27,726 nt of DNA from a virus, in the IMG/VR virus record IMGVR_UViG_3300027736_000200, positions 1 to 27,726 of that record. One strand, given 5' to 3'. Below the pieces are notes generated by a model. It was not told the DNA's origin. It did no database searches and saw only the letters and a program-made list of their open reading frames with translations. This document shows, in pieces, positions 19,944 through 25,237 of this stretch. The position numbers were made by a program, and so were the translations under genes. Positions within the stretch are counted from its first letter, which is position 1; each line of letters starts with the position of its first letter.

Positions 19944-22099
19944 TGGCATCAGTAATTGCACCCTTTGAAATCTTTCTAGACGCATCTGGAGCACCATTGA
20001 GCGGTGGTAACTTATATATTGGAACTGCGTCACTCAACCCAGAGACAAACCCCATAACGGTTTATTGGGACTCAGCACAAACTATCCCAGCAGCTCAACC
20101 CATTAAGATCAATGGCGGTTATCCTAGTTATGCTGGAAGTCCTGGAAAACTTTACGTTGGTACTTTGTACTCAATTACGGTCAAAGATAAAAACGGAAAA
20201 CTTGTTTTTTATTCTCCAATATCGGAAGCAGCTCTTGGTGGAGCTGCTGTTTCAACTGGAGCAAAAAACTACGTTGCTGCTCCAGATTTTGAGTCTGGTA
20301 CTACCGCCGGCTGGAATCTTTCTAAAGATTCAGGAACTACCGTTCCAATCTCTGGCGGTATTGGCGGTGGCACTACAGGTTTTTCCGCACTGACAATTGA
20401 TAACGCAACACCATTGGCCGGAACAGGGTCTTTGGTTATTAATAAAAATGCAGGCGACGTTCGTGGTTCAACTGTTTACTCAAACAATATAACGATTGAT
20501 CTTGAAGATACTGTTCGTACCCTTCAACTTACTTTCAGCTACAGGACACCGACAACAAACTACACTTCGGGTGATCTTTCGGTGTTCATTTGGGACGTTA
20601 ACGGTTCAAACCTAATTCCCATGTCTGCATCGTCTCTTGATGCTACTGTTGGAGGACCAGCAAACTTTTTTGGTACGTTCATCCCTTCTTCAAACCGTGT
20701 ATACCGAATTATTTTCCAGTTTACCACGACCAACGCTAATGCCCTATTGATGAACCTAGACTCGGTTGTCCTCGGCCCCCAGGTAATCCCCAATGCGGCG
20801 GCGGTGGGGGGGTGGACGAGTTATACATTGACCATTGGGGCTACCACAACTGCACCGACCAAGGGTACCAATACGACCGACCTAGCGCAATGGATGCGTG
20901 TAGGACAACAGATGGATTGGTCATATGACTACGTTCAAACTGCCGCAGGAGTTGCTGGATCGGGAACATATTTGTTTCCACTACCTTCAGGATATAGCAT
21001 TGATCTAACCAGATTCCCTGCTAATACCATTGTAGGTGTTGCCAATGTATCAAATATAGCGGATGAATTATCTTCCGCATCTGATCAGGGTAATCTTTAT
21101 GTTTATGATGCAAATAACTTGACTGCAAGGTATGCATCACCTCCTTCTGCTACTGATGTATTAGTAATAATTGGTTCTAGCGGTTTTCAGCTTTCTAACC
21201 CTGTTGTCAGATATCGATTCAAAGGATCATTTGCCATCGCCCAGTGGACGACCAACATCAACTTGGCGACGGATTTTACGGAGTATGCGAGTAATTCCGG
21301 TGCCGCTGGTTCCGCTGTCGATGATACCACAAACTTTGTTTACGGCATTTCGGGAAGTACATTCGGAACAATCACGGCAACCCTTAGAAGAACTGTTCAG
21401 TTTCAGCGGACCGTACAGGTATCTGATAAGCTGAGTATCGAAGTGTCTACCGACGGGACGTTCTGGACAGAGTTGCCACTCTCGGTCTATGGTACGACTT
21501 CAATAATTACTTACACCGAACAAAATGGGGTTGTCTATGGGGTGGGCATCGAGCGCTCTGGCCCATCTTCGACACAGGTTAAGGTGAGATTCGGGATTTA
21601 TCCGTACCCAACTGGTGCAACCTATGGTTCGGCGGGATCATCGTGGGTCAACGCCTCTGGATACAAATGGCGAGTCCGCAAGGTGTCCAACGGGAATATG
21701 GCTGAGACTCCTCCGGTGGTGAGGGCCGATTACTATAGTGCAGATGCGGCGGCAGTAAATGTTGCAATTAACTTTTCTACCAAGGCAGAAGATACGCATA
21801 GTGCAGTTACTACTGGTGCTGGTGTTTGGAAGTTCACTGCTCCAATTGCTGGGATGTATTCAGTCAAAGTTAACATTCAGGCAACATCAGTTAATTTGTA
21901 TGAACTAAGAAAGGGTGGAGCTACCACAACTCCAATCCAAAGTATTATTGCTTATAATTCTGGTGCTGGTGTTGGTCAGGCAGTTGGAACTACAGATATT
22001 AGACTTCTAGCTGGAGAATACATAGACGTTAGAGATATTACTGCCGCAAATCTTGTATATGCTACATCTAGAATCCAGATTGTAAGGATCGGATCATGA
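19943..22099 (+). CDS. Tailspike/tail fibre with P22-type head-binding domain
   Basis: 718 residues from ATG 19943, which has AAGGAG seven bases upstream; the GTG at 19940 is too close. The start overlaps the previous stop as TGATG. Residues 1-95 fit the P22 tailspike head-binding domain (LSGGNLYIGT, NPITVYW, QPIKINGGYPSYAGSPGKLY, DKNGKLVFY). Residues about 105-260 look like a jelly-roll carbohydrate-binding module (PDFESGTTAGWN to LLMNLDSVVLGP). Two further beta modules follow (about 275-425 and 428-595), then a C1q-like trimeric tip (about 600-718). No parallel beta-helix or clear endoglycosidase motif is visible, so it may bind and not cleave. GC content shifts between modules suggest recombination. 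Confidence 0.88.
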   Translation: MASVIAPFEIFLDASGAPLSGGNLYIGTASLNPETNPITVYWDSAQTIPAAQPIKINGGYPSYAGSPGKLYVGTLYSITVKDKNGKLVFYSPISEAALGGAAVSTGAKNYVAAPDFESGTTAGWNLSKDSGTTVPISGGIGGGTTGFSALTIDNATPLAGTGSLVINKNAGDVRGSTVYSNNITIDLEDTVRTLQLTFSYRTPTTNYTSGDLSVFIWDVNGSNLIPMSASSLDATVGGPANFFGTFIPSSNRVYRIIFQFTTTNANALLMNLDSVVLGPQVIPNAAAVGGWTSYTLTIGATTTAPTKGTNTTDLAQWMRVGQQMDWSYDYVQTAAGVAGSGTYLFPLPSGYSIDLTRFPANTIVGVANVSNIADELSSASDQGNLYVYDANNLTARYASPPSATDVLVIIGSSGFQLSNPVVRYRFKGSFAIAQWTTNINLATDFTEYASNSGAAGSAVDDTTNFVYGISGSTFGTITATLRRTVQFQRTVQVSDKLSIEVSTDGTFWTELPLSVYGTTSIITYTEQNGVVYGVGIERSGPSSTQVKVRFGIYPYPTGATYGSAGSSWVNASGYKWRVRKVSNGNMAETPPVVRADYYSADAAAVNVAINFSTKAEDTHSAVTTGAGVWKFTAPIAGMYSVKVNIQATSVNLYELRKGGATTTPIQSIIAYNSGAGVGQAVGTTDIRLLAGEYIDVRDITAANLVYATSRIQIVRIGS

Positions 22100-22380
22100 G
22101 CATTGAACTGGCTATAACGATCTTTGGTTTCCTTGCTACAATCGGAGGATTTGTCTTTTATTTCGGGCAAATGGATGTAAGGATCAAAAATATGGAACAG
22201 CGTGCAGGAGAGGATCGGCAACACAATTTGCAAGAGCATTCGGAGTTTTACATTGTTAAGACGGAAGTCACTCAAATCACCACCCAGTTTATTGACTTTG
22301 ATCGTCGAATGGGTTCTATCGAGGACTCACTCAAGGAGATCCTTTCGAGGCTTCCAAACAGGAGGACAAGCAATGTCTAA
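22096..22380 (+). CDS. Membrane-anchored coiled-coil protein, lysis cassette
   Basis: 94 residues. Residues 5-24 form one transmembrane segment (LAITIFGFLATIGGFVFYFG); the remainder is a charged helix with heptad-like spacing (MDVRIKNMEQRAGEDRQHN and on to SIEDSLKEILSRL). This topology suits an inner-membrane spanin-like or holin-accessory protein. The start overlaps the tailspike stop as ATGA, and the next gene's ribosome site lies inside its end. Function is inferred from topology and neighbours only. Confidence 0.7.
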   Translation: MSIELAITIFGFLATIGGFVFYFGQMDVRIKNMEQRAGEDRQHNLQEHSEFYIVKTEVTQITTQFIDFDRRMGSIEDSLKEILSRLPNRRTSNV

Positions 22381-22885
22381 GTCGCAGATTCTCTTTGACA
22401 AAAAAGCCGTCAAAATGACCGCGTTTGGCCGGGACATTACCGTGACCAACAACGTCAGAAACGAGCTTAATGGCTTGAGAACTTCAAGCGAAGTCGTGTT
22501 TTCCACCACGCAATCTGGTGCTAACGGCAAACCCTACTACCCGAGGCAATTCCCTGCGGGTCAATGGTACGTCACCGATGTGGTAGCCCACGACAAAAAG
22601 AAGGCCGATGGCACGCCCGCAGAACCATACCTGTACCCTTTCTTCCTGGCCACCAACGCTCATCAAACAGTTCCGGTTTACAAACTGGAAATAGTGAATG
22701 ATAAACAGAAAATTGGCGCACCCGATGGGACTGCTGAGGATTGGGGCTACGGCCTTCATCACTCCACCAGCTCCACCACCCTCGGTTGCATCAAGATCGT
22801 CAAGGAAGAAGACTTGCGCTGGCTTGTAGATCAGATTAAGGCCGCGTGGAACAACAATCAAATTGTGAGAATGGAGGTAGTCTAA
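22373..22885 (+). CDS. L,D-transpeptidase (YkuD)-like protein, candidate wall enzyme
   Basis: 170 residues from ATG 22373, which has AGGAGG (22360-22365) seven bases upstream; the longer frame from 22202 is not used. The key feature is GLHHSTSSTTLGCIKI (127-142): His129/130, a Ser/Thr patch and Gly-Cys-Ile match the H-x(n)-S-x-G-C-I/R catalytic pattern of YkuD-type L,D-transpeptidases, with Cys139 as nucleophile. NGKPYYPRQFPAGQW (51-65) precedes it as in related phage proteins. No signal peptide is visible, so export would need the holin. It sits between a membrane coiled-coil gene and a holin, which points to lysis, either cutting or editing peptidoglycan cross-links. It could instead be a virion wall protein. 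Confidence 0.7.
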   Translation: MSKSQILFDKKAVKMTAFGRDITVTNNVRNELNGLRTSSEVVFSTTQSGANGKPYYPRQFPAGQWYVTDVVAHDKKKADGTPAEPYLYPFFLATNAHQTVPVYKLEIVNDKQKIGAPDGTAEDWGYGLHHSTSSTTLGCIKIVKEEDLRWLVDQIKAAWNNNQIVRMEVV

Positions 22886-23370
22886 TGGACTGGCTCAAAG
22901 ACGTTTTTGGTGGTGCCGGTGGTGTCGGATCGGTTGTAAAATCTGTGGGTGATGCCGTCGGTCAGTTTGTTGACAAGCCGGAGGACAAACTAAAACTCCA
23001 GCAGGCCATGGCTGAAGCTGACCTGGCGGTACGGAAACTGGCGTTTGATGCCCAGACCAGTTATATGCAAGACCGTGCTAGTGCGCGGGAATTGTACGGC
23101 AAAGACAATTCAGTGCAAAAGGTCTACGCTTTGACCTTCTTAATCGGATACGTCGTAATTACATTGGCTCTTCTGATTGTAGTGGTAGGCTGGATCGGCG
23201 CAGCCGGTGTTGTGATTCCTGACTGGGCCAGTTTGTTGATAGGCACCATATTTGGTGCCATGAGCCAGAAAGTCGGCACGGTGACTGACTTTTACTTTGG
23301 CAGCTCGCAAAGTTCAAGCGACAAGACTGACCAGATGCAGCAGGCCATGGCTAGGATTCCTAAAAGTTGA
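22885..23370 (+). CDS. Holin of the 3TM (GTA_holin) type
   Basis: 161 residues. ATG 22885 overlaps the previous TAA by one base and has GGAGG at 22873-22877. An amphipathic N-terminal part with a helical DKLKLQQAMAEADLAVRKLA stretch is followed by two clear membrane segments, about 82-105 and 110-128, and the tail FYFGSSQSSSDKT (136-148). The FYFGSS-x-SS-x-K ending is typical of the 3TM phage holins. It would permeabilise the inner membrane at the end of infection and release or activate the wall enzymes. Confidence 0.78.
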   Translation: MDWLKDVFGGAGGVGSVVKSVGDAVGQFVDKPEDKLKLQQAMAEADLAVRKLAFDAQTSYMQDRASARELYGKDNSVQKVYALTFLIGYVVITLALLIVVVGWIGAAGVVIPDWASLLIGTIFGAMSQKVGTVTDFYFGSSQSSSDKTDQMQQAMARIPKS

Positions 23371-23374
23371 TTAT

Positions 23375-23447
23375 AGCGGGGGAGAGGCACGGTGACCTTA
23401 CTGGCCCCATAAGCCAGAGAGAGGCGGTTCGACTCCGCCTCCCGCAA
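23375..23447 (+). tRNA. tRNA-Met(CAT), initiator-like
   Basis: Full cloverleaf of 73 bases. Acceptor bases 2-7 GCGGGG (23376-23381) pair with TCCCGC (23440-23445); bases 1 and 72 are both A and do not pair. D arm GAGG/CCTT with GG in the loop. Anticodon stem CTGGC/GCCAG (23401-23405, 23413-23417), loop CCCATAA, anticodon CAT. Five-base variable loop. T arm GGCGG/CCGCC with TTCGACT loop. CCA is not encoded. The unpaired 1:72 and the A11:U24 pair are hallmarks of bacterial initiator tRNA. Position 33 is C, not U, and 8 and 14 are G and C, not U and A, which is odd. It could be a specialised or decaying gene. Confidence 0.75.
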
Positions 23448-23449
23448 GC

Positions 23450-23465
23450 GTGGCCCGAAGGCCAC
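23450..23465 (+). other. Hairpin directly after the tRNA
   Basis: GTGGCC, CGAA loop, GGCCAC: a perfect six-pair stem beginning three bases after the tRNA end and followed by AAAA, not T. It more likely guides tRNA 3' processing or protects the transcript than ends it. Confidence 0.55.
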
Positions 23466-23479
23466 AAAAGCCAACAGAA

Positions 23480-23498
23480 AGTATCACAAATCGATACT
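23480..23498 (+). other. Small hairpin before the phosphoesterase ribosome site
   Basis: AGTATC pairs with GATACT around a seven-base loop and ends three bases before AGGAG (23502-23506). It is AT-rich and weak alone, but its position could tune translation of the phosphoesterase. Confidence 0.35.
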
Positions 23499-23510
23499 AT
23501 CAGGAGACAA

Positions 23511-24284
23511 ATGAGTGTCCTCATCCTCGCAGAGGGAGACTATCACTGTGGCAATCTGCTCGGTTTGGTGCCACCTTCAGAGCAGACCGGGAAACTGAAG
23601 CACATACAAAAAGTTTTATGGGACTGGCGTAAGGCCGAAATCGCTTCTATTGGCCCTGTCGACATTCATATGGTCAACGGCGATTTGACCGACGGCCCCG
23701 GCAAAAAAGATTCTATCGGCCTGCTGACCACAGACACCGAAGAGCAGGCAGAGTGGGCAGAAGAGGCCGTGCGCCAGGTGCAGGCCAAGACTCGATTCTT
23801 TACCTACGGCTCCCCGTATCACGTTAATACGTCGTACAACACCGAAAGGTCAATCGCCAAGGCTTTCGACTGCGATATTGCCGACACTGCCCGGTTCCAA
23901 GTGAATGGAAAAAGATTCAAGTTTAGGCACGTTGTAGGTCGATCAGATACACCCTACGGCCAAGGCACCCAAGTGCAAAAAGAGATTGTCAGGGATGTGT
24001 TGCAAGCTGCGCTTGATGACCACGACCAAGCCGACATTCAAGGCCGGTCACACTGCCACTACTGGACGCGGGTCGATGTGAAAGACAAGACCGCATTTAC
24101 CATGCCGTGCTGGGAGCTTCCGCTGGACACCAAGGGAAGCGTGTACCCTCGCACCTTGCGGACGATGTACTACGACGTTGGCTTCGTTCTCATTGAGGTT
24201 ATGGATGACGGCGAGGTTATTATCCGGCCCAGACGCATGGACATTCGCGGTCTAACCAAAGTTCGTTACGAGGTGATCAAGTGA
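23511..24284 (+). CDS. Calcineurin-like metallophosphoesterase
   Basis: 257 residues from ATG 23511 with AGGAG just upstream; the frame is open through the tRNA to 23367 but that start is unreasonable. Metal-binding motifs occur in the usual order: GDYHCG (D10, H12), GDLTDG (D58), GSPYH (100-104, in place of GNHE/D), H140, and GRSHCHY (178-184, in place of GHTH). The first two and the final histidines are kept; the third departs from the usual Asn-His pair. The family cleaves phosphomono- or diesters and in phages includes RNA 2',3'-phosphatases, nucleases and protein phosphatases; the substrate cannot be told. Placed after lysis genes and before a small DNA-binding protein, with coupled stop and start. 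Confidence 0.85.
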   Translation: MSVLILAEGDYHCGNLLGLVPPSEQTGKLKHIQKVLWDWRKAEIASIGPVDIHMVNGDLTDGPGKKDSIGLLTTDTEEQAEWAEEAVRQVQAKTRFFTYGSPYHVNTSYNTERSIAKAFDCDIADTARFQVNGKRFKFRHVVGRSDTPYGQGTQVQKEIVRDVLQAALDDHDQADIQGRSHCHYWTRVDVKDKTAFTMPCWELPLDTKGSVYPRTLRTMYYDVGFVLIEVMDDGEVIIRPRRMDIRGLTKVRYEVIK

Positions 24285-24520
24285 ACCAGGTTAAACCACT
24301 TCGGCCCAACAACCCGGTCAAGATCGACTCTGAAAGCTTGCTTCGTGCCATAGAAAGCCTACCAGACACAAAATATGGCCCGGTAGGTTTTGAATGGACG
24401 CCAGAAATGGATGAAATCCTTTTGCGATTTTGGCCGGTCAAACGGCAAGCCGAGATCTGCAAGCTTCTTGGGTGCAGCCAAAACACGGCCCGCAACCGTT
24501 ACCGAGAACTAACCAAGTAG
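24281..24520 (+). CDS. Small helix-turn-helix protein
   Basis: 79 residues. GTG 24281 overlaps the phosphoesterase stop (GTGA) and has GAGGTG upstream. The C-terminal half reads WTPEMDEILLRFWPVKRQAE followed by ICKLLGCSQNTARNRYREL: two aromatic-anchored helices and a recognition helix of the CS-x-N-TARNR-Y type, as in Myb/SANT-like or terminase-small-type DNA-binding domains. It may be a regulator of late or minus-strand genes. It is the last plus-strand gene and its stop is one base away from the stop of the convergent minus-strand gene. Confidence 0.75.
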   Translation: MNQVKPLRPNNPVKIDSESLLRAIESLPDTKYGPVGFEWTPEMDEILLRFWPVKRQAEICKLLGCSQNTARNRYRELTK

Positions 24521-24521
24521 T

Positions 24522-24668
24522 TTACTGGCAGGCTTCGCAGTCGGGGTCTGCCACTTTGCATAGCTTGACCGGCTCTGGTTCGTAATCATCCCACGCATCA
24601 GCTTTGTACCCTATAGGATACAAAATGGGAGTTTTGACTGGCTTTTGTACCTGATCGGTGTTATTCAT
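24522..24668 (-). CDS. Small Cys-containing hypothetical protein
   Basis: 48 residues from ATG at 24668, chosen because CAGGAGACACC precedes it on the minus strand; longer in-frame starts would overlap the upstream gene. The C-terminus reads LCKVADPDCEACQ, a C-x6-C-x2-C arrangement that could bind a metal. The body has VKTPILYPIGYKADAWDDYE and no recognised domain. Last gene of the minus-strand operon. Function unknown. Confidence 0.65.
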   Translation of the reverse strand: MNNTDQVQKPVKTPILYPIGYKADAWDDYEPEPVKLCKVADPDCEACQ

Positions 24669-24688
24669 GGTGTCTCCTGGGAGAGCCA

Positions 24689-25237
24689 TCATAACACACG
24701 CGCCACCCTTTGTGCCTCCGAATAAGTCTTGTACCGCCTTCCTTTGTCGCAAAAAAGCGGCGCATAGGTCGATCGTCTGTTACTGATTTGCTCATATCTG
24801 ACCACTAGCCCTTTGATCCAAGCGCGGATCTCGGTGCCTCTGTCGCCAAATCTAGCCACTTCTCGCCAACCCTCTTTTTCAATGTCCTGTTGCAGCTTAT
24901 TGGGGTTTAAGTAAATTGGCACTTTGGCAACCGGCTTGGCTACCGATTTGGCTGCCGACTTCGGTTTAGGCTTGGTTACCTTAACCGGCTTGGGTTCTGT
25001 TGGTGGCTTGGCTTTTGGCTTTGGCCCGGACTTCTTATGTGGCACACCGGCCATTCTTTTTTCATAGGACTTTTTTGCTATAGCAGCAATTTTGGCTTTG
25101 TTTTCCTTGCGCCACTTTTCTTGTTTCTCTTTGTACCTTGCCATTGCCTCTGGGTCGGCTTTAAGGCTGGCCAAATACCGCTCATTTCGAATCCGCTGCT
25201 TTTCGGCAATCGCCTTCTTCTTTTCTTCGTCAGTCAT
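24689..25237 (-). CDS. Lys/Pro/Ala-rich basic protein, likely nucleic-acid binding
   Basis: 182 residues. The start is ATG 25237, which overlaps the upstream stop by eight bases (ATGACTGA); an in-frame start at 25306 lies deep in the upstream gene. Residues 1-65 form a highly charged helix, the middle (about 66-108) is a low-complexity linker of K-P, A-K-P and K-S-A units, and the C-terminal 70 residues form a compact domain with IEKEGWREVARFGDRGTEIR and YEQISNRRS. The layout, basic helix plus flexible linker plus globular domain, fits a DNA- or RNA-binding protein. The C-terminal domain is not recognised. Confidence 0.7.
   Translation of the reverse strand: MTDEEKKKAIAEKQRIRNERYLASLKADPEAMARYKEKQEKWRKENKAKIAAIAKKSYEKRMAGVPHKKSGPKPKAKPPTEPKPVKVTKPKPKSAAKSVAKPVAKVPIYLNPNKLQQDIEKEGWREVARFGDRGTEIRAWIKGLVVRYEQISNRRSTYAPLFCDKGRRYKTYSEAQRVARVL

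Follow-up and report, generated by a model that had tools for sequence, protein, structure and literature searches.

The three G-C pairs of the anticodon stem are the textbook hallmark of initiator tRNA. An initiator carried by a phage is not new in itself, and such genes are annotated plainly as tRNA-Met. A blastn search with E. coli tRNA-fMet matched 411 phage records, and a scan of viral contigs for an initiator-type pattern matched at least 120 contigs. Leaving out the kind studied here, the matches listed in that scan comprised 92 distinct sequences, part of which are probably host genes at prophage ends. According to PMC4105405, which cites Winther and Gerdes 2011, enteric VapC cuts tRNA-fMet between positions 38 and 39; altered cut sites in phage tRNAs have been proposed as a form of nuclease escape (PMC10264068).

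The tRNA gene and its neighbourhood

The tRNA analysed here lies on a 27.7 kb virus record; ‘the window’ is the whole stretch analysed, 27,726 nucleotides. Pfam hits to a P22-like portal, a coat protein and a Terminase_3 large subunit place the source contig among the P22-like phages. The major coat protein (window 9444) has a GTG start preceded by a strong AGGAGG. Features around the tRNA, and within it, are as follows.

22885..23370, plus strand: upstream gene, holin-like by sequence; matches only PHROG families without known function
23375..23447, plus strand: initiator-type tRNA-Met(CAU), positions 1–73, no encoded CCA
23375..23381, plus strand: acceptor 5′ strand AGCGGGG; A1 unpaired, G2–G7 paired with 66–71
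23384..23399, plus strand: D-arm; G10:U25, A11:U24, G12:C23, G13:C22; C14 and A15 atypical
23401..23417, plus strand: anticodon arm CTGGC-CCCATAA-GCCAG; anticodon 23408–23410
23440..23447, plus strand: acceptor 3′ strand TCCCGCA and discriminator A73
23448..23510, plus strand: conserved intergenic stretch with two hairpins, 23450–23465 and about 23477–23501
23511..24284, plus strand: downstream gene, metallophosphoesterase-like by motifs; no Pfam or PHROG match

The stop codon of the upstream lysis gene lies only 4 bases 5′ of the tRNA, which is on the structural-gene strand. A further gene, at 22370–22885, may belong to the lysis cassette: its HHSTSSTTLGCIKI stretch resembles an L,D-transpeptidase active site, and the gene gave no Pfam or PHROG match. 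Among phage records the phosphoesterase-like protein had a single match, at 29.8% identity, in a virus assigned to Methanomicrobiales. A DNA search with 22000–25000 against the phage collection returned no match, nor did the hairpin stretch (23448–23515) against Rfam. The two hairpins (GTGGCC-CGAA-GGCCAC and AGTATC-7-GATACT; z −4.6) are nearly unchanged in relatives.

ARAGORN called tRNA-Met(cat) at 23376–23446, and the Rfam tRNA model (RF00005) scored the gene at 32.6 bits (E 3.9e-5), above the gathering score of 29 and thus within the family. A default-filter Rfam scan of the whole window did not list the tRNA at 23376–23446; default filters drop it despite its passing score, and similar phage tRNAs may escape annotation pipelines. 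Nine cultured-phage Met-CAT tRNAs, the majority initiator-type, scored 42–69 bits against the same model, and the window tRNA, below them all, has the lowest score of its kind in this analysis.

With position n taken as window coordinate 23374+n, the acceptor comprises an unpaired A1:A72 followed by G2-C71, C3-G70, G4-C69, G5-C68, G6-C67 and G7:U66. The anticodon stem is C27-G43, U28-A42, G29-C41, G30-C40 and C31-G39, closing the loop CCCAUAA, in which C33 falls at 23407 and A37 follows the anticodon. Positions 9 and 26 are both A, the variable loop is AGAGA and the T-arm reads GGCGG-TTCGACT-CCGCC. The core departs from the usual tRNA in having G8 for U8, C14 for A14, and A15 facing A48. All the bases singled out in the first-pass annotation (A1 and A72, A11:U24, CAT, A37, CCCATAA with C33, and non-standard 8 and 14) are indeed present, to which may be added A15 opposite A48 and the absence of an encoded CCA. 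Its three G/C pairs beside the loop are likewise all there, but the third, C31 (23405) with G39 (23413), is the reverse of the bacterial G31-C39 and hence a departure from the bacterial form.

The tRNA is conserved in related phages

Two IMG/VR contigs (L002/L004 and L003/L005) keep the tRNA between the same lysis and phosphoesterase-like genes, so that the check proposed in the first-pass annotation, a search of related phages for this tRNA at its present location, gave a positive answer. A1:A72 and A11:U24, whose loss was to count against an initiator, are kept in all three copies. Its structure, and its retention between the same genes on all three contigs, confirm the tRNA as real, beyond chance.

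Relative to the window copy, 0/73 tRNA positions were changed in one relative and 5/73 in the other, compared with 48/186 and 50/183 (26–27%) of fourfold sites in the flanking genes (Fisher test, p 2e-8 and 2e-4). The tRNA, far less changed than these sites, is therefore under purifying selection. In the copy with five changes, four are at unpaired positions, including C33 to U33, and the fifth, C65 to U, keeps a G-U pair. The L002 copy fell below the reporting threshold in the RF00005 scan. The 63-base spacer downstream shows equal conservation, part of which might therefore stem from local recombination or from some other constraint. When the coat protein, holin or phosphoesterase was used to look for further relatives, the matches were near-identical or very partial only, and a scan for G8/C14 as a wider variant recovered just the two known relatives.

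Probably an initiator rather than an elongator

Bacterial initiators lack a Watson-Crick pair at 1:72, and A1:A72 is found in all three copies; they carry R11:Y24, here A11:U24, and G29:C41 with G30:C40, both of which are present. Their G31:C39 is replaced here by C31:G39, and the tRNA is therefore placed with phage variants of the initiator and apart from the standard bacterial form. A position profile of the sites outside the acceptor, made from 199 initiator-type and 82 other CAT tRNAs and standing in for a comparison of initiator and elongator covariance models, favoured the initiator by 9.6 bits. Most of this score is carried by the D-stem, with C14, A15 and G8 counting against an initiator; since the collecting pattern fixes the acceptor and positions 10–12, the D-stem is partly preset, making the profile supportive, not decisive. 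The test is at the same time conservative, a few initiator-like tRNAs sitting in the ‘other’ set. Together with A1:A72 and A11:U24 in both relatives, the profile supports the assignment to the initiator type.

Two ideas attached to that assignment fared less well. A bias in start-codon use late in infection is not supported: three of the 20 main ORFs start with GTG and one with TTG (starts picked by eye), and the CAU anticodon adds no decoding beyond that of the host initiator. Nor is C33 distinctive, being neither unique (8 of the 92 distinct viral initiator-type sequences among the matches listed have it) nor fixed (one relative has U33). A chimeric tRNA-Met at 37822–37897 of PfAn1, a Pseudomonas phage that is P22-like by its portal, has an initiator acceptor, a GGG/CCC arm and a CCCATAC loop, yet an elongator-type C11:G24.

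Reversal of the third anticodon-stem pair

Y31:G39 recurs across many unrelated phages and hardly ever in bacteria. Among the matches listed it occurred in 22/120 viral contigs with initiator-type tRNAs and in 20/92 distinct initiator-type sequences, and a dedicated Y31:G39 pattern found 112 stretches in viral contigs, including the 22 already among those 120. The same Y31:G39 pattern across 84,980 prokaryote species genomes found 57, the majority in Patescibacteria MAGs; as judged from titles, 39 came from Patescibacteria lineages, six from bacteria lacking a title, with similar sequences, and 12 from others; three of the 12 were identical to tRNAs on viral contigs. Bacterial initiators sampled by the initiator pattern have G31:C39. 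In Bacillota, 62/91 genomes matched, and only the seed, itself picked for the reversal, was without G31; in Patescibacteria (28/87 genomes) G39 was present in the seed and one more, and in Pseudomonadota (137/299 genomes) in the seed alone among the matches listed. The difference between 22/120 viral contigs (matches listed) and 0/61 Bacillota genomes gives p 7e-5, although neither contigs nor genomes were drawn independently and p-values are indicative only.

Cultured phages gave the same picture when their initiators were read individually: in 18 chosen across the hit ranking, not at random, Y31:G39 was found in eight and G30:C40 in all 18. The eight phages with G39 infect Pseudomonas, Sinorhizobium, Synechococcus, Klebsiella, Streptomyces, Brevundimonas, Mycobacterium and Aeromonas. 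In two Dolichocephalovirinae, Bajun and Ccr29, the tRNAs agree at all but six of 72 positions, and the 31:39 reversal accounts for two of the six. No description of the reversal was found in the limited collection of papers searched.

Three readings of the change at 31:39 were considered. The pair might simply be free to change, the 16S contacts of initiator tRNA being with 29:41 and 30:40. Plain relaxation was rejected on the types recovered: in the 92 distinct viral sequences (matches listed), the 22 that are not G:C at 31:39 comprise 13 C:G, seven U:G, one G:U and one U:U, so that 20/22 changed types are Y:G39 and none is A:U or U:A, whereas 29:41 has 52 A:U and 13 U:A. Loss of constraint alone should yield A:U, and the skew therefore points to G39 itself. 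Alternatively, recombination may have taken place between phage initiators and other CAT tRNAs, G39 being present in many of the latter. The most testable reason is that G39 would let the tRNA escape VapC-type nucleases cutting at 38/39, a suggestion we hold tentatively. Extended to all the phages concerned, it would mean that many lineages independently reversed the third pair to G39, resisting such toxins while keeping the two pairs that the ribosome needs, a scenario that is possible but doubtful on present comparisons.

Function and alternative explanations

The window tRNA is probably a working, phage-owned initiator made with the late transcripts (probability about 0.62, judged from sequence features). 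It would be cut from the late transcript, receive CCA from the host, and be charged with methionine through CAU and A73. Formylation would follow from the unpaired 1:72, G2-C71, C3-G70, G4-C69 and R11:Y24; the tRNA would be kept off EF-Tu and would use G29-C41 and G30-C40 to enter the P site. These determinants of charging, formylation and EF-Tu exclusion are those of initiator tRNAs in general. Late supply is suggested by the start of the gene 4 bases past the lysis-gene stop on the structural-gene strand, and the tRNA may sustain initiation late in infection, when host initiator could be scarce or attacked. Its activity could be poor, because the core has neither U8 nor A14 nor a standard 15:48 pair, and its Rfam score is the lowest.

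Those same missing elements, with the missing CCA, the low Rfam score and the L002 copy below threshold, would fit a host or phage initiator that has lost its function and is decaying, the alternative raised in the first-pass annotation. It is rejected on conservation, as 0/73 and 5/73 changes against 26–27% at fourfold sites, with those in the relative preserving structure, make decay improbable. Selection might instead act on a tRNA-like punctuation mark directing RNase P and RNase Z to separate the lysis gene from the gene that follows it in the late transcript, with no part in translation; the 4-base gap to the upstream stop and the hairpins directly downstream, in a spacer conserved throughout, are in keeping with such a role, but the retained A1:A72, A11:U24, CAU and A73 are not called for by it, and we consider it unlikely.

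The PfAn1 chimera, with its initiator acceptor and GGG/CCC arm joined to C11:G24 in a P22-like relative, shows the form that an elongator Met tRNA, or an Ile tRNA with lysidine, could take with a borrowed acceptor; A11:U24 and the unpaired 1:72 in all three copies, and the profile odds in favour of an initiator, leave little room for this here. Temperate phages often integrate at tRNA genes, and from this general knowledge one might propose an attachment-site relic left by integration into a host initiator gene. That origin is very improbable for a full-length tRNA whose best identity to any collected initiator is about 74%, beside which no integrase was recognised, and which the same phage genes flank in three contigs.

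Comparison with known systems

Patescibacteria initiators with Y31:G39 share G39 with the window tRNA, sometimes C33, in some cases A48 with A15, and mostly the lack of an encoded CCA, but have U8 or A8, and A14. Some combine G39 and C33 with an A48 that faces A15 and forms no Levitt pair, their sister sequences having G15 with C48. Patescibacteria were considered as the host on the strength of G39, C33, A15/A48 and the missing CCA, and rejected, as the profile places the window tRNA nearer phage initiators and the phage's portal was not found in 380 Patescibacteria genomes, against 6/398 Pseudomonadota genomes in which it was (best 37% identical).

With bacterial tRNA-fMet the window tRNA shares the acceptor GCGGGG/CCCGCAA, unpaired 1:72, A11:U24, G29-C41, G30-C40, CAU, A37 and A73, but differs in C31:G39 for G31:C39, C33, G8, C14, A15 with A48, and the absence of CCA. 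The initiator-type tRNA-Met genes of eight cultured phages (Milchi, phiM12, S-CRM01, phi1_175008, Wakanda, Bajun, Aegeus and Aeh1) are likewise phage-borne and initiator-like, with Y31:G39 and G30-C40 kept, but have a more standard core and U33; their genomes span 75–233 kb and several hold other tRNA genes, whereas the window holds a lone tRNA in a P22-like fragment. A set of phage initiators in which the middle pair is mostly kept and the third is reversed, in nearly all cases to G39, amounts to a natural experiment on the requirements of the ribosome.

The nuclease-insensitive phage tRNAs of van den Berg et al. 2023 (PMC10264068) also carry anticodon-arm changes beside known cut sites, but phages of VapC-bearing Shigella are said there generally to avoid encoding tRNA-fMet. 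Phage initiators with G39 offer a specific and cheap test of nuclease evasion, for the tRNA that the earlier study thought to be avoided by phages whose host bears VapC.
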